Below, in pieces: positions 5,769 through 34,968 of a stretch of DNA of 64,000 nt (the first letter of the stretch is position 1; the number at the start of each line of letters is the position of its first letter). Source of the DNA: Daejeonella sp. JGW-45 (lineage in GTDB: Bacteria > Bacteroidota > Bacteroidia > Sphingobacteriales > Sphingobacteriaceae). Location: positions 372,001-436,000 of the forward strand of contig NZ_JARKNC010000008.1 in NCBI RefSeq assembly GCF_029360805.1, written 5' to 3'. The position numbers and the translations under genes are program-made. The notes under the pieces were generated by a model that did no database searches, was not told where the DNA came from, and saw only the letters and a program-made list of their open reading frames with translations.

Positions 5769-7685
5769 ATGTATTTAGCCACTATTTATATTAAAAATTA
5801 CAAAGGTATTGAATCGTTAACTATCCCATTCGATCCAAATATTAATATCATCATTGGAGAAAATGGCTGTTGCAAAACAGCGGCAATAGACGCCATTAGG
5901 CTACTTTATAATTTGGGGAATCCTAAAAAAGACATTTATCTAGCTAATGATGACTTCTATATCAACAGCGCAAATGGCAAGCAAAGCAATATCATTGAGA
6001 TTAAATACTTATTTTATGGATTAACCACTACAGAGAAAGGAGCTTTATATGAATATTTAATACTCCATCCGACAGACCCAGTAAAAGATTATGCTCAAAT
6101 CACTATCCAGTACGAACGCCGTGAAAAAGGCTATCCGAAGTTTTCATATTATACAGGTGCAACCCTTGAACAGAAGGCGGATCCTGGTACTTTTGACATC
6201 TTTCAACATTACTATTTAGGGGCCTTACGCGACAGTACGACTGATCTTCTAAATATAAAAAGCAACGTCCTGGGTTCTGTGATCAAGAGATTAGTTGAAC
6301 GAAGCAACACAGAGGATGATTTCAGAAAGATTATAAAAGATGCAAATACCGAATTGCTAAAGCGCCCAGAGGTTTTGACCACGAGGCAAGGCGTAAATTT
6401 GCATTTGGATGATATTTTTAAAATATCTAAAGATAATCAGATCGGTCTACGTATAGAGGAGTCCTCAAGAATCGAAAGCATAGTCAACGTAATAAAACCA
6501 TACCTCCCGCACGATAAGAAACTCCTTGAGAATGAAGGATTTCAGCTTTATCAAAACAGCTTAGGCTTTAATAACCTCATTTATATCGCTATTATTCTCG
6601 GTGATATCAAAGAGCGACTTGTGGATAATTCGAATCAACATTTTGTTCTATTAATCGAAGAACCGGAAGCTCATTTGCACCCACAATTACAACTGAATCT
6701 TTACAATTTTTTAAAGGTAGCCAGTTCCCCAACAAATTGTCAGCTATTTATTACAACGCACTCACCAACACTGACGTCTAAGTCAGACCTTGACAATCTG
6801 ATAGTACTAAAAGGCTCTGCCGTGAATGTTGGCGATTGCTTTAAGGAACGTGCCGCGGAAAATATAATTGAGCAAATCGTCAAGAAAACAGTCCTCACCG
6901 AAAAAGACTTCTTAAGGCGAAAAATGCAACTGCAACGATATTTGGACGTTACAAAAAGCCAACTTTTCTATGCCCGCGGAATACTTTTTGTTGAAGGCAT
7001 CTCAGAAAAACTTCTAATTCGAGCCTTTGCAGAAGTCTTAGACAAGCGTATAGAGGATCATCGCTGTGAGATCGTCAGTGTTGACGGTATTTCTTTTTAT
7101 TCATTCATACACCTTTTTAATTCTACCGATCCTAATCGGAAACTCAGTTATAAAGGAGCTATTATTACTGACGATGACCGCTTATCAAAGTCCAAGAACA
7201 GTTTTAAAAATTTAACCACCCAATCTTTTAAAAACCTAACCGGCTTTCATGCAGACCTTTATAACGCAACCATTGGTAATCGGCTAGGTAATCTTCGGTC
7301 AACGCTTAGTAATCATGTTACTGATGTGAGGCTGTTTGCAGCGTTCAAAACGCTTGAATTTGAAATTGCATTAGCAAATATTCCGGGGACCAAAGTCGAA
7401 TATTTTAACAATTTTTTAGTGCAGTATATCGCAACGGTTGATTCAAAGAAATCAGCAGTAATCGACTTGTATGTAAAAAGTTTGCCCAACCCCACGCTGA
7501 GCAATGACGAGCGAGAAAAGATAGCCATTTTGTTGTGGAAATCTTTGCCATCGAAAGCTGAATTCGCACAAAACTTCTCAATTGCTTTAGATGAGGAATT
7601 TTTACAGGCGCAAGCAAGTGGGAAAACTCTCCAATTTAATGTACCGGAATACATCAAGAAAGCTATTAACCATGTAATTCAATAA
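5769..7685 (+). CDS. gajA: Gabija-like GajA: OLD-family ATPase with TOPRIM nuclease
   Basis: The N-terminus is an SMC/RecF-type ATPase: Walker A GENGCCKT at residues 30-37, a Walker B block LLIEEPEAHLHP near 295-305, and the H-loop ITTHSPT near 327-333. A TOPRIM domain follows, with FVEGISEK near 406 and IITDDDR near 464-470. This ATPase plus TOPRIM order is that of OLD nucleases; with a UvrD-like helicase immediately downstream it matches Gabija, in which GajA nicks DNA. At 638 residues it is somewhat longer than the GajA proteins I recall. Its TAA shares one base with the next ATG, so the pair is surely co-translated. A class-2 OLD plus helicase system outside Gabija is possible. Confidence 0.8.
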   Translation: MYLATIYIKNYKGIESLTIPFDPNINIIIGENGCCKTAAIDAIRLLYNLGNPKKDIYLANDDFYINSANGKQSNIIEIKYLFYGLTTTEKGALYEYLILHPTDPVKDYAQITIQYERREKGYPKFSYYTGATLEQKADPGTFDIFQHYYLGALRDSTTDLLNIKSNVLGSVIKRLVERSNTEDDFRKIIKDANTELLKRPEVLTTRQGVNLHLDDIFKISKDNQIGLRIEESSRIESIVNVIKPYLPHDKKLLENEGFQLYQNSLGFNNLIYIAIILGDIKERLVDNSNQHFVLLIEEPEAHLHPQLQLNLYNFLKVASSPTNCQLFITTHSPTLTSKSDLDNLIVLKGSAVNVGDCFKERAAENIIEQIVKKTVLTEKDFLRRKMQLQRYLDVTKSQLFYARGILFVEGISEKLLIRAFAEVLDKRIEDHRCEIVSVDGISFYSFIHLFNSTDPNRKLSYKGAIITDDDRLSKSKNSFKNLTTQSFKNLTGFHADLYNATIGNRLGNLRSTLSNHVTDVRLFAAFKTLEFEIALANIPGTKVEYFNNFLVQYIATVDSKKSAVIDLYVKSLPNPTLSNDEREKIAILLWKSLPSKAEFAQNFSIALDEEFLQAQASGKTLQFNVPEYIKKAINHVIQ

Positions 7686-9403
7686 TGCAGTTCGACATAA
7701 CCCCTGATAATAAACCTTACTTAGATGGTCGCGGAAAAATCATTTTAAACGCATGCCCAGGCAGTGGCAAAACTACTGCAATCGCTTACAAATTGGGAGC
7801 CCTAGTAAAAGAATGTGAACAAACTTATGGTCCTTATGCTGGGATTGCCTGCTTATCCTTTACAAATACAGCTACGGAAGAAATTGCAAGCAAGTTCCGA
7901 GGTTTGACCAATAGCTATTTAAGCTTTCCACACAGTGTATCCACGTTGGATAGTTTTATTAACCGATATATAACATTACCGTTTTACTATTTGATGGGGA
8001 AACCTTCAAAGCGGCCGATAATTCTTGATGTTGTTTCCTTTCTTGATGAAATGAATCTTGGTTATTTTCCGGCCAAGTCCAAACAACCCCTTGTTAGGAT
8101 ATTGCAGCCATCAAAACTGAAATTTGAATCAACTGGTGAGATCAGCTGGAACGGAAACCGTCCGAAGGCACAGACGGTTGATCTTGCTATATTCGACAAA
8201 TATGCGGCAACATTTAAGAATTGGCAACTAAACAATGGCTATTTAAATAACGATGATTCTACTTACATAGCTTTCCGGTTATTAAATAAATTTCCTTCTA
8301 TTGCCGACGATCTGGTGCAGCGATTCCCGTATTTCATTATTGATGAAGCTCAAGATACCTCGGAAATACAATACAAGATATTTGATATACTCATCGCCGC
8401 AGGGCTAACAAACATAGAGTATGTCGGCGATCCATACCAGAGCCTGTATGAGTTCAGAGAAGCACGTCCAGACCTTTTCTTGGCCCGTTTTGCCGACACA
8501 GCTAACTGGAAACCGTTACGATTAAAGGATTGTAGGCGTACGTCACAGCAAATCATAAATGCTTATAGCCTCTTCCGATCTCCAGCCGAAGTTTCGATTA
8601 TTTCATCTTGTAAGCATACTACAGATCATCGTTTAAAAGTATTGAGATATGATCCAGCGAACCTTTCCGATCTAATAAGTCGTTATGAAGCTTTAATAGA
8701 CATAACGAAAGAAAACTATATTCTGGTTCGGGGGAGCACGCATCTTGAAATGTTCGGTGCGAAATTCTCTTCTGAACAACCTTGGAAACATGGGGCAGCC
8801 AGGAGCTTAGTGGATGCTCAACAGTTCTATAATGGGGGAAATGTAAAAAGTGCTGTTGATACACTGAGAAAGTTTCTAGTTGAGATACAAGTACCTGCTG
8901 CAGATCGCAAGGAGCAATGGAATCTTCGAGAGAAAATGAAGGAAGATTTAGATGTCAATATTCAACTATTTGAGTTCTTAAGGCGAATGCCTTCAATTGA
9001 TGACACATTAGAGGCCTGGACAAAAAAAGTCGTGGATTTTATTTATAGCGAACTCAATGTCACTATCGACCTCCAGCTAAAACAGAAAGGGAAGGCATTC
9101 TACGCGTTAAACTTAAAAGCACTTCTTTATCCCGAAATAAATGTAGATTATCCAGTGACTACTATTCACAAAGTTAAGGGCATGACATTTCATTCCGTTT
9201 TATTAGTATTGAGTGAAAATAGTACGGCAGCAAACATTTCCCTTTCGGAATTTAAAAAGCCGACCGGTTTGCCTTCTGAAAAGCAACGTATGATTTACGT
9301 AGCATTATCGCGTCCTGAGGCGATGGCTTGTATCGCTGTGCCAAATACAATCGGAGAGGAAAAGGTTAAAGAATATTTGGGAAACGACATCGAATTTGCA
9401 TAG
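7685..9403 (+). CDS. gajB: Gabija-like GajB: UvrD/PcrA-type helicase
   Basis: Superfamily 1 helicase motifs appear in order: Walker A ACPGSGKTT (residues 23-31), SFTNTATEEI (about 58-67), Walker B FIIDEAQD (about 216-223), motif III-like YVGDPYQSLYEF (about 247-258), TIHKVKGMTF (near 495) and a C-terminal YVALSRPE (near 538). These are UvrD hallmarks. The 1-nt overlap with the OLD nuclease and their order fit GajB, which acts with GajA. It is larger than a minimal GajB (572 residues). The gene converges on the PD-(D/E)XK gene, leaving a 47-bp gap. Confidence 0.8.
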   Translation: MQFDITPDNKPYLDGRGKIILNACPGSGKTTAIAYKLGALVKECEQTYGPYAGIACLSFTNTATEEIASKFRGLTNSYLSFPHSVSTLDSFINRYITLPFYYLMGKPSKRPIILDVVSFLDEMNLGYFPAKSKQPLVRILQPSKLKFESTGEISWNGNRPKAQTVDLAIFDKYAATFKNWQLNNGYLNNDDSTYIAFRLLNKFPSIADDLVQRFPYFIIDEAQDTSEIQYKIFDILIAAGLTNIEYVGDPYQSLYEFREARPDLFLARFADTANWKPLRLKDCRRTSQQIINAYSLFRSPAEVSIISSCKHTTDHRLKVLRYDPANLSDLISRYEALIDITKENYILVRGSTHLEMFGAKFSSEQPWKHGAARSLVDAQQFYNGGNVKSAVDTLRKFLVEIQVPAADRKEQWNLREKMKEDLDVNIQLFEFLRRMPSIDDTLEAWTKKVVDFIYSELNVTIDLQLKQKGKAFYALNLKALLYPEINVDYPVTTIHKVKGMTFHSVLLVLSENSTAANISLSEFKKPTGLPSEKQRMIYVALSRPEAMACIAVPNTIGEEKVKEYLGNDIEFA

Positions 9404-28114: not shown

Positions 28115-28669
28115 CTACGCATGTGGAAATACAATGTTGGCTTCGATGTCTTGCAATTTTTCAATGCAAGCATCATAAATGAATTGTGATACCATGCGGA
28201 TAAGTCCGGCAGTATTGGTGGTGAACTGCTTGCCTTTATCGTCGGTAATAGTCAGCTTGCAACCCTGAAAATGATTGCTTTCCAACTCGTCGCCACCTTC
28301 AATAAGCGAAATTTCAAAGGCTTCGAGTTGTCCGATTCGGTTCAATAAATTATCCCGTTGAATACTACGGCGGTGCAAATCATGAACAACCTTTAATGTT
28401 GCTTCCAAATTAAGCGCCGGCACAATTGCTTTTGCTTCCTGCTTTGCTTCTGCTTGTGGTTGTTCGGTGGCTCTCTGTTGGGTATTTTCCGGTTTTACCT
28501 CAACTTTTGTTTGCTCCGGCTTCCCAACATTTTCAGTTCCTTCAACCTTCTTTTCCTCCGCTTTGGCTGTGGGTAGAGCCCCGTTACTTTTTACTTCTGC
28601 TGCATTTGCACTGTTTCCTTTTGCCTGTGCGCCTGGCACATTTGGGCGGTTTTTGATTTTTGTTTCCAT
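28115..28669 (-). CDS. Conserved conjugative-element protein with disordered N-terminus
   Basis: 184 residues. The first about 80 are low-complexity (Ala, Glu, Lys, Gln, Pro-rich). The C-terminal about 100 residues fold: LEATLKVVHDLHRRSIQRDN, RIGQLEAFEISLIE, a beta pair CKLTITDDKGKQFTTNT and helix LIRMVSQFIYDACIEKL. I recognise it as a frequent hypothetical of Bacteroidota conjugative elements but not by name. It lies upstream of the small and DUF932 genes on the same strand. Confidence 0.65.
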   Translation of the reverse strand: METKIKNRPNVPGAQAKGNSANAAEVKSNGALPTAKAEEKKVEGTENVGKPEQTKVEVKPENTQQRATEQPQAEAKQEAKAIVPALNLEATLKVVHDLHRRSIQRDNLLNRIGQLEAFEISLIEGGDELESNHFQGCKLTITDDKGKQFTTNTAGLIRMVSQFIYDACIEKLQDIEANIVFPHA

Positions 28670-28724
28670 GTTACTGGTTTTTTAGTGATTAAAAATTTGT
28701 TAAAAAGCCATTTGGCAGAAACCA

Positions 28725-28891
28725 CTTTTGGCTTTTGATAGAGGCAAAAAATTTGAGCGGGGGCCTGGGAAGGCAAGGCTTTGCGGCGAAAAAATACTAC
28801 CCGAAGGCGTGGAGATTTTTTTGTTCAAACCCAGAGGGCTCGGCCTTGCCGACCGAAGAGGTATAACTTTGCCTCAGCAAAAGCCAAAAAG
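28725..28891 (+). repeat. Dispersed inverted-repeat element, copy 3 (about 167 bp)
   Basis: The best preserved copy. Ends pair over about 20 bases: CTTTTGGCTTTTG..GAGGCAAA (28725-28748) against TTTGCCTC..CAAAAGCCAAAAAG (28869-28891). It lies between the 28115-28669 gene and the RT gene. The remainder of the gene-free stretch 28670-29131 has a small hairpin (CTTAAT / ATTAAG, 29041-29060) and a repeated GAATTAAG, near the 3' end of the RT gene, but nothing else I can support. Confidence 0.7.
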
Positions 28892-29131
28892 GACAGGGCT
28901 GGGTACTGATGCTAAAGCATTTTTCAAACCCTCGTTATACAAAAAGAAATGGGGGTGATAAAGGACAACTTTTACCAGTTAAACACGATTATTTGTTCAC
29001 CCGTTTTTTGAAAGAATTAAGATAGGCTGGGACCGAGCAGCTTAATCCTTGCACATTAAGGCAAAATAGAATAGAATTAAGTTCTGTGGCGATCGTTGTA
29101 CCTTACCCACTTTCGCTTTTTATGAATACGC

Positions 29132-30805
29132 TTAGATAAATGGCAAGTCTTCCCCTTCATCAGAAAATGGGGATCTTGCTTTGACAGGAGAAATGGCTTC
29201 AAAAACACTTTCCGGTTCTTCTTCCTCAGCTTCAGCCTCATCATCGCTAATAAACTCTCCAATAGACAATGAGGCAGACGTAACTCTTACCTTTGTCAAA
29301 TCTAGTTGCCTTTCCGGCTTATAGAATTGTACATCATTATCTTTAAGCATCTTAAAAAACGGATCTTTAGATATATAGTCGACGGGTGTAGTAAGCCATC
29401 CTTTTTGTTTAGCTTCATAAGCCAATAACCAATTCTCACTATATAAACTCTCTGCAGAGAGAAGAGATTCCCATTCACTGGTATCTAAACCGGCAGGTAT
29501 TAACCCAGATTGCTGAAGATCAAGAACAACTAAGACTACGACTGAATTATTTGTTTTAGAGAGCTGGGTTGCAACATTTTCTGAAATTGTAATTGATAAA
29601 GACTTAAGAATCCAAAGCCCCCATGATACTTCAAAATCATTATTTAAAGATAAATGGAACAAAATAAACTCTTCTAAAGCGCTATTTATAATAGTTTCAT
29701 TTAAGGGATAGCCCTTGCTATCGTAACTAATCAATGTTTGCGCTATATATGGAAGGATTTTAGGCTCGATAATAAGGGAATTCAGTAAAAGTGATTGCAG
29801 GATGCTCCAATTTTTGATGTGAAAAATTGTAGCCCTCAATTTCGACATAGCGTACGTTAATACTAAGTCGTCTGGGAAGTTCTTAGCGTAAGAAAATGTC
29901 TTATCAAAAAAAGATATTATGTCTTTTCTTTGAGCGCGCCAATCATTCCGAAATCGAAATTCCCTTAAGTTATTAAACCATTCACTTTCTATTACTTCGG
30001 GCAACTCTACAATCCTCTCCTTGCTCTGATTTAATTCAAGCTCAAATTCCTTCAGCGTTCGTTGTATGACAGCACGAGCGATCTCAAGATCGCCCAGGTT
30101 TTTAAAATACAAGAAATAGTCATCGATTATCCGAATACCTGTTAAATACTTTAATACACTATCCAACTCAACATCTATCGCAGAAAGGATGATTTCTGAT
30201 ACTATCCGACTGGAATCCGGTCCAATAGGAATTCCAACTGTTTGTCCGTCTTGTATTTTCCTGCTATCCTCGTCCAGTGCATTTCCTAATAAGGCCAATC
30301 GGTCTCTTTTGGCTTTGGATATAACTTTTGTGTGTAGTGCCCAGGGGATACTGTGAGTATAGATTGAATTATAGCAGCGAGAGATATCGATTCTTAAAAG
30401 GAATCTATATCCTGTAGAACGAATTATTCTCTCTTTGATATATAGATCAAAACTAGGTTTAACCAGAGCTCGTAAAGTATCTTTTTTTACTCTAAGTTTT
30501 GAAACTGAAATTTTAGATTTATTACAATGATCAACAATAGATATCCAGTCATTTACAATTGTATTTGAAAGCCTTATGTAATGAAGTGGGTGTGGAATAG
30601 CTAAGTTTCGACGATATCCTTTAATTTTAGGAGTTGAAAATGGAAGAAGCTTTGTAATTAGTTTCTTTTTACGCTTTTCTACCGGATCAAAAGCATCTAA
30701 GTTTAAGATGACCTCATCAACAACAATTAATAAGTCATCACTTGTGAAAGGAGGCAAAATCTCTTCCGGAAAATATCCCTTTTTAATTAAATCATTTATT
30801 TCCAT
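29132..30805 (-). CDS. Reverse transcriptase, third gene of a SIR2-HerA-RT operon
   Basis: 557 residues. RT motifs are clear: motif A FLLRIDISRCYNSIY with Asp140, motif B GQTVGIPIGPDSSRIVSE (GIPIGP 191-196), motif C GIRIIDDYFLYF with Asp228 and Asp229 (IDD in place of the common ADD). This variant is typical of the Abi-like and defence-associated RT branches rather than group II intron maturases. About 300 residues after the palm are helical with no recognised domain, ending in an acidic tail (DDEAEAEEEEPE). No HNH, maturase or integrase domain. It begins 10 bp after the HerA stop, so one transcript is expected. Confidence 0.88.
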   Translation of the reverse strand: MEINDLIKKGYFPEEILPPFTSDDLLIVVDEVILNLDAFDPVEKRKKKLITKLLPFSTPKIKGYRRNLAIPHPLHYIRLSNTIVNDWISIVDHCNKSKISVSKLRVKKDTLRALVKPSFDLYIKERIIRSTGYRFLLRIDISRCYNSIYTHSIPWALHTKVISKAKRDRLALLGNALDEDSRKIQDGQTVGIPIGPDSSRIVSEIILSAIDVELDSVLKYLTGIRIIDDYFLYFKNLGDLEIARAVIQRTLKEFELELNQSKERIVELPEVIESEWFNNLREFRFRNDWRAQRKDIISFFDKTFSYAKNFPDDLVLTYAMSKLRATIFHIKNWSILQSLLLNSLIIEPKILPYIAQTLISYDSKGYPLNETIINSALEEFILFHLSLNNDFEVSWGLWILKSLSITISENVATQLSKTNNSVVVLVVLDLQQSGLIPAGLDTSEWESLLSAESLYSENWLLAYEAKQKGWLTTPVDYISKDPFFKMLKDNDVQFYKPERQLDLTKVRVTSASLSIGEFISDDEAEAEEEEPESVFEAISPVKARSPFSDEGEDLPFI

Positions 30806-30815
30806 CAGGTAGAGC

Positions 30816-32570
30816 CTAAAATTGCGGAGTTTTAGAATTTGGCTCGATGCTAGGCCGATTCACCTTCAAAATCACAGGCATAGGAAAGTCAACTCCCATT
30901 AAAATTGCTTCTCCTTCACCCAATATTGGTAAAAATGATAATGAGTTTCTGCTTGCAGACGAACACGCATTCTCAATCGCTTCCTTGTCATAAGGATTTA
31001 TTAGCCGGTGGACGATAAACGTCCCCATTTGACTCAGTGTGCCAGCGGGAATATCTCTAGGCATTTGGGTTGCCAAGCATAAAAACAATCCATACTTTCT
31101 GCATTCTTTGGCTATTTGATCGAAAGCACTCAAACGGGTCAATTCAAAATACTCATCCTTGACATATTTATTTAAATACTGGTGTGCTTCATCAATAAAT
31201 AAAACTAAAGGCTTAGTCTTGAATTTACCAGATCGCGAAGTCATTAGCAAATATTTACCTATAGCATTGGCTAAAATCTCTCTGATTTGGAAGTCGAATC
31301 CAACTGATTCGAATCCTATCCTAAAAAGACAATCGTCGCTGTCTATAAACTTGTTTATATTTTTTATAAGTTCATTATTGTCTGATTTATCTTTGTTCAT
31401 CCCAAAAATTTTATCAAAACTTTGGTTATGAAGCAGACTATTAGCCCGTAATATTAAGCTTATGCAGTTATTTAAATGGGTATCTTGCTTACCTCCCCAT
31501 GCCAAATTTTCATTATCCCAAACACATTCTGCTGTAATTTGATCGGATAACTGCCTGATATCAAAATCAGCCAAATCACCTTCGATAACGCTGATAAATC
31601 TTCTATAAATACGATTGTATGGTCGCTTTTTTTCTCCTGATTTCTTTATTATACCATTGTGAACTTTAATTTCTTCATAGTTCCCATCGCTAATTTTAAT
31701 ACTAAAAGAACCTGATTCTAATTGCTTAATATTATCATCATCAACGTTCTTTCTTAAAACATCAAGTATTTTTAATGATTTTATTGCATCAAGCAGTTTT
31801 GGCGCCTGAACTTGGCCACTTGGTCTAAGTAATACGAAAATATCTTCGATGCTAAGATTGGAATAATGGAAAAAGTTATTCTCCCCGATTATTGAGCTTT
31901 CTGCAATTTTCTCTTTGCCATCGAATGAAGCATATTCACCCGTAGCATCTATTAAAATGGCTTTTCCGTTGTGCCTAATAGTTTCCTCTAAACACTTACT
32001 GAGGGTCCAGCTTTTACCACCTCCGGTTGTTCCAACGATTGCACAATGACGTCCAAATAGCGCTTGTTGCGCCACCTCTATCGAGGTTGTATTATCAGAT
32101 GTTAATTTGCCGAAATCAAATAAGGGAGCATTTGCAGCGCTATCCTCTTTTAATCCAAATCTCTTAAAATAGGTTTGGATAAATTCGGATGTACAAACGA
32201 ATACCTTTGAACCAATATTCGGGTAACAGCTTAAGCCCTTATTTACCTTTTCAACATTAAAGTAGTCGAACGAAAGCAGGATTTCGATTTTACCCGCTGG
32301 ATGAAAGTCTTTTCGCTGAAAATCGTTTTCATTTAACACCAACCGTTCCTTTTCAGGAAGGGATAACTCCAATATTTTTCCGAGAAAGCCATGATTTTCC
32401 CCTTCAATCGTAACATAATTACCTACTAACCCCGCATTAAATTCCTCTCCGGAAAAAATAAATTTATTAAGTAGCACAGAAGAGGGGAAATGAACCCTGA
32501 CGAAGTCAGGAAAGACCTGGCTGATATAGCCAATAAAATAATTATGGTCAAAAGGCTTTCTAAAGTCCAT
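30816..32570 (-). CDS. herA: HerA-like (FtsK/HerA fold) ATPase
   Basis: 584 residues from ATG 32570, which overlaps the SIR2 stop by 11 nt. The HerA pattern is complete: an N-terminal HAS-barrel-like region (VTIEGENHGFLGKILELSL), Walker A IVGTTGGGKSWT near 178-188, KAILIDATGEYASF, Walker B LVLFIDEAHQYL near 455, a sensor region LFLCLATQMPRDIP and FIVHRLINPYDKEAI. HerA hexamers are DNA translocases; paired with SIR2 they form a known anti-phage complex. The partner here is upstream. Confidence 0.9.
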   Translation of the reverse strand: MDFRKPFDHNYFIGYISQVFPDFVRVHFPSSVLLNKFIFSGEEFNAGLVGNYVTIEGENHGFLGKILELSLPEKERLVLNENDFQRKDFHPAGKIEILLSFDYFNVEKVNKGLSCYPNIGSKVFVCTSEFIQTYFKRFGLKEDSAANAPLFDFGKLTSDNTTSIEVAQQALFGRHCAIVGTTGGGKSWTLSKCLEETIRHNGKAILIDATGEYASFDGKEKIAESSIIGENNFFHYSNLSIEDIFVLLRPSGQVQAPKLLDAIKSLKILDVLRKNVDDDNIKQLESGSFSIKISDGNYEEIKVHNGIIKKSGEKKRPYNRIYRRFISVIEGDLADFDIRQLSDQITAECVWDNENLAWGGKQDTHLNNCISLILRANSLLHNQSFDKIFGMNKDKSDNNELIKNINKFIDSDDCLFRIGFESVGFDFQIREILANAIGKYLLMTSRSGKFKTKPLVLFIDEAHQYLNKYVKDEYFELTRLSAFDQIAKECRKYGLFLCLATQMPRDIPAGTLSQMGTFIVHRLINPYDKEAIENACSSASRNSLSFLPILGEGEAILMGVDFPMPVILKVNRPSIEPNSKTPQF

Positions 32571-33798
32571 TTTTAGCAGGTGCCGGATTAAACGCTTCAG
32601 TATATACTTTGGAAGTAGGATAGTTCTGAGCGAAATCTTTAAATTCCTCAGCAACTATAGTAACATTAAATTGCTTATTTGCCTTGTCGATAAACCACTG
32701 CATTTCTTCTGAATCTCGTATCGACCGGTTTACAATTAGCACTCTGAAACTTGGATTTTGGCTGACGGCTTCCTTAATGGCCGTTACAATATGTTTATCA
32801 TTTAAGCTAAATCCCACACAGATCAATAATACATTGTCCTTCCGCAGGTTATGCTGAAACCTTGACATCATTTCAAAAAACGGTTGATCATATGAGTTTT
32901 CATATTTACTATCCTTAGGATAGATCATCAAAGGGGTTTCGGTTAAATCATTTATAACGATCCTTTCCTCGTTTGTTAGCTCCCAATTAATAGAACCGTG
33001 TGGTTTGTATAAATGAAAAACCTTTGGTACAAAGCTCTCTTCTTCCTTAATCCTGCTTTTTTCCCGGTACACTATATCATAATCGAAATTTCTTCCGCTT
33101 AAGGTTCTTGGCGACGAAAATGAAAACCCATCAATGACAGTAAAGTTGCCTTTAACTGCGGCCTGTTCAAATAAAGTGTCATAGTTGAGTGTGAACACTT
33201 TTACTCGGGGGTCTTTGAGCTTTCGATTGGTAATCTTATTTAAGAAAGATTCGTGCGGAGAGTCATCCTGCAAATCTATTTTGCAATTAGTGCAAATCTC
33301 CTTCTCACATATTTTAATGGTATCTGTTATATCAAAGTCTGTCTCAACAAAGCTTTTGGCAGTACTTGCTCTAGAAAGCAGCCTTTCTAAATCTTTGTCC
33401 GCATCAGTAAGATTCGCAAATACTGTATCTTCCGGAATGAATTTTACAGCTTTACAAAACTTCTCGAGTACCGGGCTAGTTAACTTTGCTTCTACCTTCT
33501 CCCACAACTCTTTCATAGTTTTACCTCCCCAACCTACGGATGATCCAGCACCGGTCAACACAATCAAATTTTCGAAATGAGATTTTAAGAAGGATGAGTA
33601 AGCTGCACGTTTTAGCTTATCTGCAAATGCAATTTTTTCTTCGTTAGTCGCTGGAGCTTCATCAACAAACTCGTAAGGTAACCCATTAACCAGAATAGTC
33701 GATTGTACAATATCATCATGATCTTTAGTCACCTCGATAGAAATTTCCTGTTGTGCAGAAATAAAAAACTTTGTTACTATTTTATCTGGTACAGGCAT
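32560..33798 (-). CDS. SIR2-family NADase-like protein
   Basis: 412 residues. The SIR2 signature runs LIVLTGAGSSVGWGGKTMKE (about 77-96), the catalytic-type block FTLNYDTLFEQA (about 201-212) and KPHGSINWEL with its His near 265, then LLICVGFSLNDKHI and VLIVNRS of the Rossmann C-terminus. The N-terminal about 70 residues may be a small beta domain. Defence SIR2 proteins deplete NAD+ on infection; partnered with HerA the pair is a recognised anti-phage system. First gene of the operon, followed by HerA and the RT. Confidence 0.9.
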   Translation of the reverse strand: MPVPDKIVTKFFISAQQEISIEVTKDHDDIVQSTILVNGLPYEFVDEAPATNEEKIAFADKLKRAAYSSFLKSHFENLIVLTGAGSSVGWGGKTMKELWEKVEAKLTSPVLEKFCKAVKFIPEDTVFANLTDADKDLERLLSRASTAKSFVETDFDITDTIKICEKEICTNCKIDLQDDSPHESFLNKITNRKLKDPRVKVFTLNYDTLFEQAAVKGNFTVIDGFSFSSPRTLSGRNFDYDIVYREKSRIKEEESFVPKVFHLYKPHGSINWELTNEERIVINDLTETPLMIYPKDSKYENSYDQPFFEMMSRFQHNLRKDNVLLICVGFSLNDKHIVTAIKEAVSQNPSFRVLIVNRSIRDSEEMQWFIDKANKQFNVTIVAEEFKDFAQNYPTSKVYTEAFNPAPAKNGL

Positions 33799-33894
33799 AA
33801 GTTTTAATTGATTTCTCTAATTTACTATTAAAGTATATGATTCTCTTACGCACAAGATATTTTTCAAAGCCCGGGTATGTTATGCTTCGAAGCG

Positions 33895-33920
33895 CAAAAA
33901 AGCCCGCTTTTCGCGGGCTC
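33895..33920 (-). terminator. Rho-independent terminator of the tra-side operon
   Basis: On the minus strand, GAGCCCGCG / CGGGCTT arms with loop AAAAG are followed by a T run, 8 bp after the stop of the 33928-34968 gene. A recognisable decayed copy lies at 11258-11290. It ends the tra operon before the SIR2-HerA-RT cassette, which therefore needs its own promoter in 33799-33890. Confidence 0.8.
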
Positions 33921-33927
33921 CCCAATC

Positions 33928-34968
33928 CTAAACTTTAACACCTTTCTTTTTGCTCCGCTTATTCTGCACCAGCGGATCTTCTTTCTGGTCGGCGTTCTGT
34001 TTTCTGTCCACCGACGCCTTCGGCTCCTGACCTTGCGAAACACTCTCCGACTTCTTAACCTCCTTAATCGTGTCCCGCTTAACCGGATTCATCTTGTGAT
34101 CGTACACATTCACATTCTTATACTGCGGTGACGCCTCTATGAAATATCGCGCTTCCTTGCCGCCATCACGAACCACAGTCACAGATTGTACATTGCCTCG
34201 CTCCAGCGAGCGCATCAGGTCGACCTTCTGATTCGGATCCGCAAGTTCTTTGATCGTAAAACCATCCAGCGCCTTCTCCAGGTCATAGCCGTACTTTTCA
34301 CCGAACTGCTTGATCTTATGATTACCCGAATCAGTTTTGGTGTCAAAATCCAGCTTTATCCACGCTTTGTATTTAACCTGCTCCTGCGTCTTCAGCTCTT
34401 TATGAACGGCACGGCCTTCCAGCAGGTTAAACGCCTCCTTCGCCGTAATAGACGAGCCGTTGTTCACGTAGAAGGTTTGGGATTTGTCTAGCGACGCGTC
34501 GCTATGCTTCAACGAAGCATCATACCGGTTAATAAAGTACATATCCGTAGTATCGGATTTACGCAGGTGCAGGGTATAGTCCATGCGGTTATTGAAATGC
34601 GGGATCTCGGTTTGAAGCTGAAATTCTTTCAGGCCTTTCTGGATACCTGACGCTAAATCCTTGTTTAGCGTCTCGCCGAAGCCAAAGTTCTTTAGCTGCG
34701 ATTGTAAAAACTCAACATTTTGTGTATTCATAGCTTTATTGTTTAATTGATTAATAATATCCGGGATGTATTGGTACGTCATCCGGTCATAGTCTGACGT
34801 GTTGTCGTGGGCAAACTGGGCCGCATCAAACCGGTCGCTGAAAGTGTGTAGCTGATCAGCGCTCGTTATCGGCATACACTCTTCATAGGCTACCCATTGC
34901 TTACCCTGATCGGCCTTGCTTTTTAATAGTTTGCCTATTTCAGTCTGTATATCTTTCTGCAATTTCAT
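33928..34968 (-). CDS. DUF3945/DUF4099-like conjugative-element protein
   Basis: 346 residues. The middle and C-terminal parts fit DUF3945-type repeats of Bacteroidota conjugative elements: AFNLLEGRAVHKELKTQEQV, KAWIKLDFDTKTDSGNHKI, YGYDLEKALDGFTIKELADP and MRSLERGNVQSVT. The C-terminus is basic and Gln-rich (QNKRSKKKG). Function unknown, probably in transfer or mobile-DNA processing. Last gene of the tra operon; a broken copy of its 3' end is at 11258-11567. Confidence 0.75.
   Translation of the reverse strand: MKLQKDIQTEIGKLLKSKADQGKQWVAYEECMPITSADQLHTFSDRFDAAQFAHDNTSDYDRMTYQYIPDIINQLNNKAMNTQNVEFLQSQLKNFGFGETLNKDLASGIQKGLKEFQLQTEIPHFNNRMDYTLHLRKSDTTDMYFINRYDASLKHSDASLDKSQTFYVNNGSSITAKEAFNLLEGRAVHKELKTQEQVKYKAWIKLDFDTKTDSGNHKIKQFGEKYGYDLEKALDGFTIKELADPNQKVDLMRSLERGNVQSVTVVRDGGKEARYFIEASPQYKNVNVYDHKMNPVKRDTIKEVKKSESVSQGQEPKASVDRKQNADQKEDPLVQNKRSKKKGVKV

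Follow-up and report, generated by a model that had tools for sequence, protein, structure and literature searches.

Why should a reverse transcriptase (RT) lie immediately behind a two-gene NADase defence system? The question is raised by a cassette in the genome of Daejeonella sp. JGW-45, which we analysed within a stretch of 64,000 nucleotides (contig NZ_JARKNC010000008.1, positions 372,001 to 436,000; hereafter the window, from whose first letter coordinates are counted). On its minus strand a SIR2 gene (32560..33798; 412 aa, ATG at 33798, stop at 32560), a HerA gene (30816..32570; 584 aa, ATG at 32570, stop at 30816) and an RT gene (29132..30805; 557 aa, ATG at 30805, stop at 29132) follow one another head to tail, with SIR2 overlapping HerA by 11 nt and a gap of 10 bp between HerA and the RT; the longest open reading frame (ORF) of HerA in the ORF listing opens upstream, at TTG 32654, against the ATG used here. 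Coordinates and ORFs agree with a preliminary description of the locus, which had reported this order and spacing, and the motifs that it quoted are present in SIR2 (GAGSS, NYDTLFE, HGS), HerA (GTTGGGKS, LFIDEAH) and the RT (D140, GIPIGP, IDD). Both machines are already known, usually apart, and the new point is their joining in one apparent operon. We think that a CTnDOT-like conjugative element here probably carries a stack of two known anti-phage machines, which would share one transcription unit and act in parallel, because either half mostly occurs in the absence of its partner, and the RT and SIR2-HerA are each known alone.

What kind of enzyme is the RT? Pfam recognises RVT_1 (3.4e-9), and PADLOC gives near-equal scores to Drt4 (PDLC02177, 601 bits) and Drt6 (PDLC03748, 587 bits), an ambiguous result in that the Drt4-labelled models 02177 and 02179 also score the DRT6-type clade highly; against the NCBIfam Drt4 equivalog the RT reaches 247 bits, short of the cut-off of 450. 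Against PDB chains, phmmer gives the match to 9wy8 an E-value of 2.1e-94, and no UG15/DRT4 chain does better than 9.3e-24. The same entry, titled 'hexameric DRT6', is the best Foldseek match (TM 0.95 on target, 35% identity; 0.81 for DRT4) of an AlphaFold2 model built from a 12-row alignment (mean pLDDT 81.8), so that in both sequence and fold the RT stands closer to the solved DRT6 than to DRT4, AbiK or Abi-P2. In a midpoint-rooted tree of 40 RTs, with long branches for L118 and L173, it falls in a 20-row DRT6-type clade (support 98/96) apart from the DRT4-type RTs, and this clade also contains the RT of locus L171, for which PADLOC scores Drt6 highest. The catalytic aspartates D140, D228 and D229 are invariant in the 8-row and 12-row alignments. 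Comparison with the classified defence RT groups, a check proposed in the preliminary description, thus assigns the protein by phmmer, fold model and tree as a predicted DRT6-type enzyme. The model comprises an RT domain, a helical C-terminal domain and an acidic tail of low confidence, apparently disordered (residues 506-557, encoded at 29132-29290), that ends in GEDLPFI. This ending presumably resembles the tip of SSB; several other DRT6-type RTs carry acidic tails that end differently, and we therefore make no claim of SSB mimicry.

DRT4 and DRT6 are reviewed as single-gene systems (PMC13213688), and in this respect the window RT, placed behind HerA, departs from the description; we regard the operon placement as a matter of genomic context, not of enzyme identity, and the DRT6-type RTs of L036 and L171 are also found in operons. 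As reviewed, DRT4 produces random, template-free single-stranded DNA (ssDNA), which the phage protein ORF55 shields; the same phage protein is an activator of DRT6, for which the product is less well resolved (PMC13213688, PMC13314766). A preprint describes the Class 1 systems examined so far as synthesising template-independently, some of them protein-primed (PMC13174585). A templating non-coding RNA was considered and is unlikely, since the reviews describe DRT4 and DRT6 as single-gene and an Rfam search of 28600-34200 with E up to 1 returned zero matches.

The two genes upstream form a predicted Nezha-type NADase pair by homology. Pfam assigns SIR2_2 (3.9e-12) to SIR2, and DUF87 (5.5e-18) and HerA_C (2.8e-10) to HerA; PADLOC assigns PDLC04075 (272 bits) and PDLC04103 (612 bits). 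Both proteins match solved SIR2 and HerA chains, with the NYD and HGS residues of SIR2 in register with the solved SIR2-HerA complexes. NYD and a histidine are reported to form an NAD+ pocket common to DSR2 and SIR2-HerA (PMC11263360); the window SIR2 has these residues, and HerA adjoins it. The Walker A and B motifs of HerA, a predicted hexameric DNA-motor ATPase, are invariant in 7 aligned relatives (GTTGGGKS and DEAH). Scores below the NCBIfam cut-offs (SIR2_antiphage, 105 bits versus 500; HerA_antiphage, 135 versus 800) mark the pair as a distant member. SIR2-HerA is reported to restrict phages by itself, through NAD+ loss (PMC11559045).

How often, then, do the two machines occur together? 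We took a census with profile hidden Markov models, built from alignments A2-A5 and run over the fetched loci, a non-random sample. Of 40 DRT4/DRT6-type RT loci, two contained HerA, namely those of the window and L037. Seen from the other side, an RT was present in one of 32 other HerA loci of these branches, again L037, and in none of the remaining 31. Across the 32, the DNA downstream of HerA spans 1.2 to 8.3 kb (<1.5 kb in L186, L187 and L094). By comparison, SIR2 adjoined HerA in 31 of these loci, the exception being L190, where the contig ends within HerA. An earlier scan of 55 loci with an RT, drawn from viruses and genomes, overlapping the 40 and including other RT groups, found SIR2 or HerA in none of them. 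The 40 RT loci leave out weak or other-group matches (L004, L038, L041-L045, L126-L130, L132-L153, L159-L169, L176, L211, L221, L222 and L228), fragments or broken RTs (L039; L040, in two pieces in genome G175; L120; L217), same-contig repeats (L212-L215, L218-L220) and near-copies (L172, L177, L178), and a further 13 genomes with weak RT matches were not taken in at length; the 32 HerA loci leave out the fragments L089 and L090 and short duplicate loci. Thirteen plasmid regions were opened among several hundred matches. Among viral contigs, window-type HerA found one relative, L170, without an RT, and L037-type HerA found none; phage records held no RT match at 1e-30. Across 161 genomes of the order, L037-type HerA occurred in 3, all of them previously collected. 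Our literature search, which did not cover the 2022 UG/Abi survey by Mestre et al., found no paper joining SIR2, HerA and an RT.

The window RT has its nearest relatives in L001 (66% identity over a 349-aa piece) and L035 (51%), both without adjoining SIR2-HerA. A conserved three-gene system is therefore not supported, because close relatives do not keep the union; the preliminary description had suggested one system, and by the very test it set, whether near kin normally occur apart, the suggestion does not survive in this branch. It had also held that such separation would mean chance adjacency. Kin are indeed usually separate, but pure chance is not established, because L037 has the same order, tight spacing and distant members of all three families.

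Locus L037 (genome G174, of the same family) encodes a SIR2 of 350 aa, a HerA of 579 aa and an RT of 504 aa, ordered as in the window, with gaps of 2 bp and 20 bp as measured from the longest ORFs (TTG starts for SIR2 and the RT), and a KAP NTPase gene then follows the operon. Its proteins share 23% (SIR2), 26% (HerA) and 29% (RT) identity with those of the window and have different best PADLOC models (SIR2 PDLC04087, HerA PDLC04105, Drt4 PDLC02178). In the tree the two RTs belong to separate clades, both well supported, and the closest relatives of either lack SIR2-HerA: the window RT groups with L001 and then L035, and the L037 RT with L226 and then L155, a locus in which just 0.9 kb of upstream DNA is available and another gene occupies it. 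The union thus recurs in the same order in an unrelated branch, an answer to the question of recurrence raised in the preliminary description that is positive once, in L037, and negative in the other 31 HerA loci. Two gains would be the simplest count from the tree; one ancient gain followed by many losses may be an alternative. In either case the SIR2-HerA-RT union is unusual, with a parallel in a distant branch.

In the nearest SIR2-HerA pair, L076 (4868-8621, genome G347; HerA 85% and SIR2 72% identical, the SIR2 ORF ending early at an internal stop), homology with the window runs through the HerA stop codon, and an unrelated 253-aa gene follows 12 bp on. Elsewhere the gene after HerA encodes a protein of 407 aa (L077), DUF6602 (L233) or a putative methyltransferase (L232). 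The third slot is variable, since L076 and other HerA genes carry different downstream genes. In L085 (4522-8336) SIR2-HerA is followed by a PDC-M62A-like ATPase, a relative of the ATPase beside the L036 RT, an arrangement hinting at module shuffling. Our best reading of these comparisons is that the window RT would descend from a solo-type ancestor and have been added downstream of HerA.

Do RTs of this kind also settle behind other defence genes? At 36 of the 40 RT loci an upstream ORF is in reach, and at 5 of these 36 it is co-oriented with the RT and no more than 30 bp away: HerA in the window and in L037, GajB in L171, a 704-aa protein in L174 (no Pfam or PADLOC match) and an 84-aa ORF in L002 (no Pfam match). 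Three of the five are thus motor genes of known defence pairs, and at the other 31 loci a same-strand upstream ORF is never closer than 39 bp. With such small numbers and a non-random sample, we treat placement behind motor genes as a lead and not as an enrichment. In L171 (3087-8668), on an Agrobacterium plasmid, a DRT6 RT lies 15 bp behind GajA-GajB (PADLOC 610 and 584 bits, this being the one Rhizobiaceae plasmid cassette on which PADLOC was run). The layout of AAA/TOPRIM gene, helicase gene and RT is found in all four annotated Rhizobiaceae plasmid regions opened (L171, L172, L177 and L178), an IS4 transposase splitting the first cassette gene of L172. The L171 RT recurs at 98.7-100% identity in 6 plasmid records, and this near-identity makes the Gabija-RT union one event. 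In L210, sister to L171 in the tree, an 89-aa ORF lies 112 bp upstream in place of GajB, and GajA or GajB queries matched none of the other 39 RT loci. A third RT union with a HerA-like gene is hinted at by a single table entry, in which the UG12 RT AGA07305.1 is listed with the neighbour domain YjgR (PMC8934634, Table 1), a HerA-like helicase according to a PDB title; that paper mentions neither HerA nor SIR2 by name.

Two further arrangements were seen among these loci. In L036 (126-6078, genome G189) the contig ends on the upstream side of a DRT6-type RT; a PDC-M62A-type ATPase follows the RT after 2 bp and is succeeded, in a closely spaced series, by an HNH gene and by a SIR2-like protein that scores under the Pfam cut-off. 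In L174 (4839-8590, on a Pseudoalteromonas plasmid) a DRT4-type RT overlaps the gene of the 704-aa protein by 4 nt, and the start of this protein, by eye, resembles a GHKL-type ATPase.

The surroundings of the window cassette are those of mobile cargo. Conjugative-transposon genes flank it, TraM and DUF4138 on one side and DUF932 and RadC on the other. The gene identities, operon-like layout and cargo status put forward in the preliminary description are borne out. GC content is 37.4, 36.4 and 35.5% over the three genes and 47.1% and 42.5% in the two flanks, which is compatible with, and no proof of, their arrival as one cargo. A terminator had been placed at 33895-33920, and a hairpin with a T run is indeed found between the tra gene and SIR2, on the minus strand at about 33897..33923 (minimum free energy -18 kcal/mol); this terminator-like element only modestly beats shuffled sequence (z -1.42; 15 of 200 shuffles fold equally well) and is absent from the output of the terminator scan. 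Sigma-70-like sites number 17, versus 17.1 in shuffles, and the promoter scan therefore speaks neither for nor against promoters. An imperfect 20-nt direct repeat (28919..28938 and 33859..33878, 16/20 identical) brackets the cassette and may be chance or an insertion trace. In the search for an empty site, comparison of the cassette flanks with the collected loci matched the window's own locus alone, and one protein search of the same genome returned only distant or broken copies of the tra gene. On the plus strand the window also carries a separate Gabija pair, GajA at 5769-7685 (PDLC00083, 807 bits) and GajB at 7685-9403 (PDLC00138, 345 bits).

How might such a cassette work? If the stacked operon is the right description, the prediction is that SIR2-HerA would form an assembly with a HerA hexamer at its centre and drain NAD+ upon infection, and that the RT would form a hexamer making ssDNA without a nucleic-acid template; on the model taken from DRT4, the chemistry of DRT6 being less resolved, this ssDNA would turn toxic once a phage DNA-binding protein shields it. 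We infer that one shared transcript would set the dosage of both machines together, and that two self-sufficient abortive machines would most likely respond in parallel to different phage cues. Two same-order unions in distant branches, joined by the Gabija-RT union, are more than a plain stack needs, and this weighs against it. It is possible, if doubtful, that the machines are instead coupled, with the RT as sensor or signal maker and SIR2-HerA as effector: RT-made ssDNA that persists on infection would switch on NAD+ cleavage by SIR2, with HerA loading onto this ssDNA or docking with the RT hexamer. A polymer from the RT that might trigger or gate SIR2-HerA had been proposed in the preliminary description, and such a product would agree with the random, template-free ssDNA reviewed for DRT4. 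Such coupling would account for the second independent operon in L037, which tells against simple stacking, for the repeated placement behind DNA motors (3 of 5 close upstream genes) and for the YjgR neighbour tabulated for AGA07305.1 (PMC8934634), but the union is rare from both sides, the nearest RT kin lack it, SIR2-HerA is reported to defend without an RT (PMC11559045), and the related DUF4297-HerA complex is reported to cut double-stranded DNA and not ssDNA (PMC11291478; review PMC12198126).

The same placements allow a broader reading, which we consider unlikely: DRT4/DRT6-type RTs would be portable DNA-signal modules that mostly evolve alone and have been plugged behind motor pairs repeatedly (SIR2-HerA twice, Gabija once), their ssDNA acting as a second messenger that feeds or licenses the motor and fires the NADase or nuclease. 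For Gabija, the model cited in PMC10681800 has GajB detecting DNA termini, and the GajA:GajB complex is reported there to have unwound no substrate tried and to have bound no DNA without ATP. Quite improbable, in our estimate, is adjacency by chance in a cargo hotspot, two modules lying side by side without selection for their union. The gene after HerA does vary by locus (L076, L077, L233, L232 and L085) and the window holds its Gabija pair as well, yet GC is uniform across the three genes, and two unions share their order with RT gaps of 10 and 20 bp when 31 of 36 RT loci lack any such close same-strand ORF.

Each outcome would carry its own lesson. If the cassette is a stack and nothing else, it shows conjugative elements bundling abortive-infection systems; should HerA be driven by what the RT makes, both the purpose of DRT6 DNA and the trigger of the SIR2-HerA NADase would be explained, and DNA polymers would become a class of immune signal. 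Because a comparable union has arisen on at least one other occasion, a working link between RT and SIR2-HerA is worth testing, and the window, L037 and the Gabija version are natural objects for a test of the link between RT and motor.

Set beside known systems, the cassette is a composite of familiar parts. With DRT6 (UG12-type, 9wy8) the window RT shares sequence, fold and the combination of RT and helical C-terminal domains, but DRT6 is reviewed as a single-gene system and the window RT is the third gene behind SIR2-HerA. With Nezha the window shares SIR2 followed by HerA, overlapping genes, NAD-pocket residues and HerA motifs, whereas its pair is distant from the named equivalogs and has the RT as an additional gene. 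The L037 operon agrees with the window cassette in its three kinds of gene, in their order and in their tight spacing, and differs in its DRT4-type RT, its other branch of SIR2-HerA and its downstream KAP NTPase. The GajA-GajB-RT cassettes of Rhizobiaceae plasmids likewise place a DRT6 RT a short distance downstream of a motor gene that belongs to a two-gene defence system, but there the system is Gabija and the arrangement belongs to a single recent lineage.

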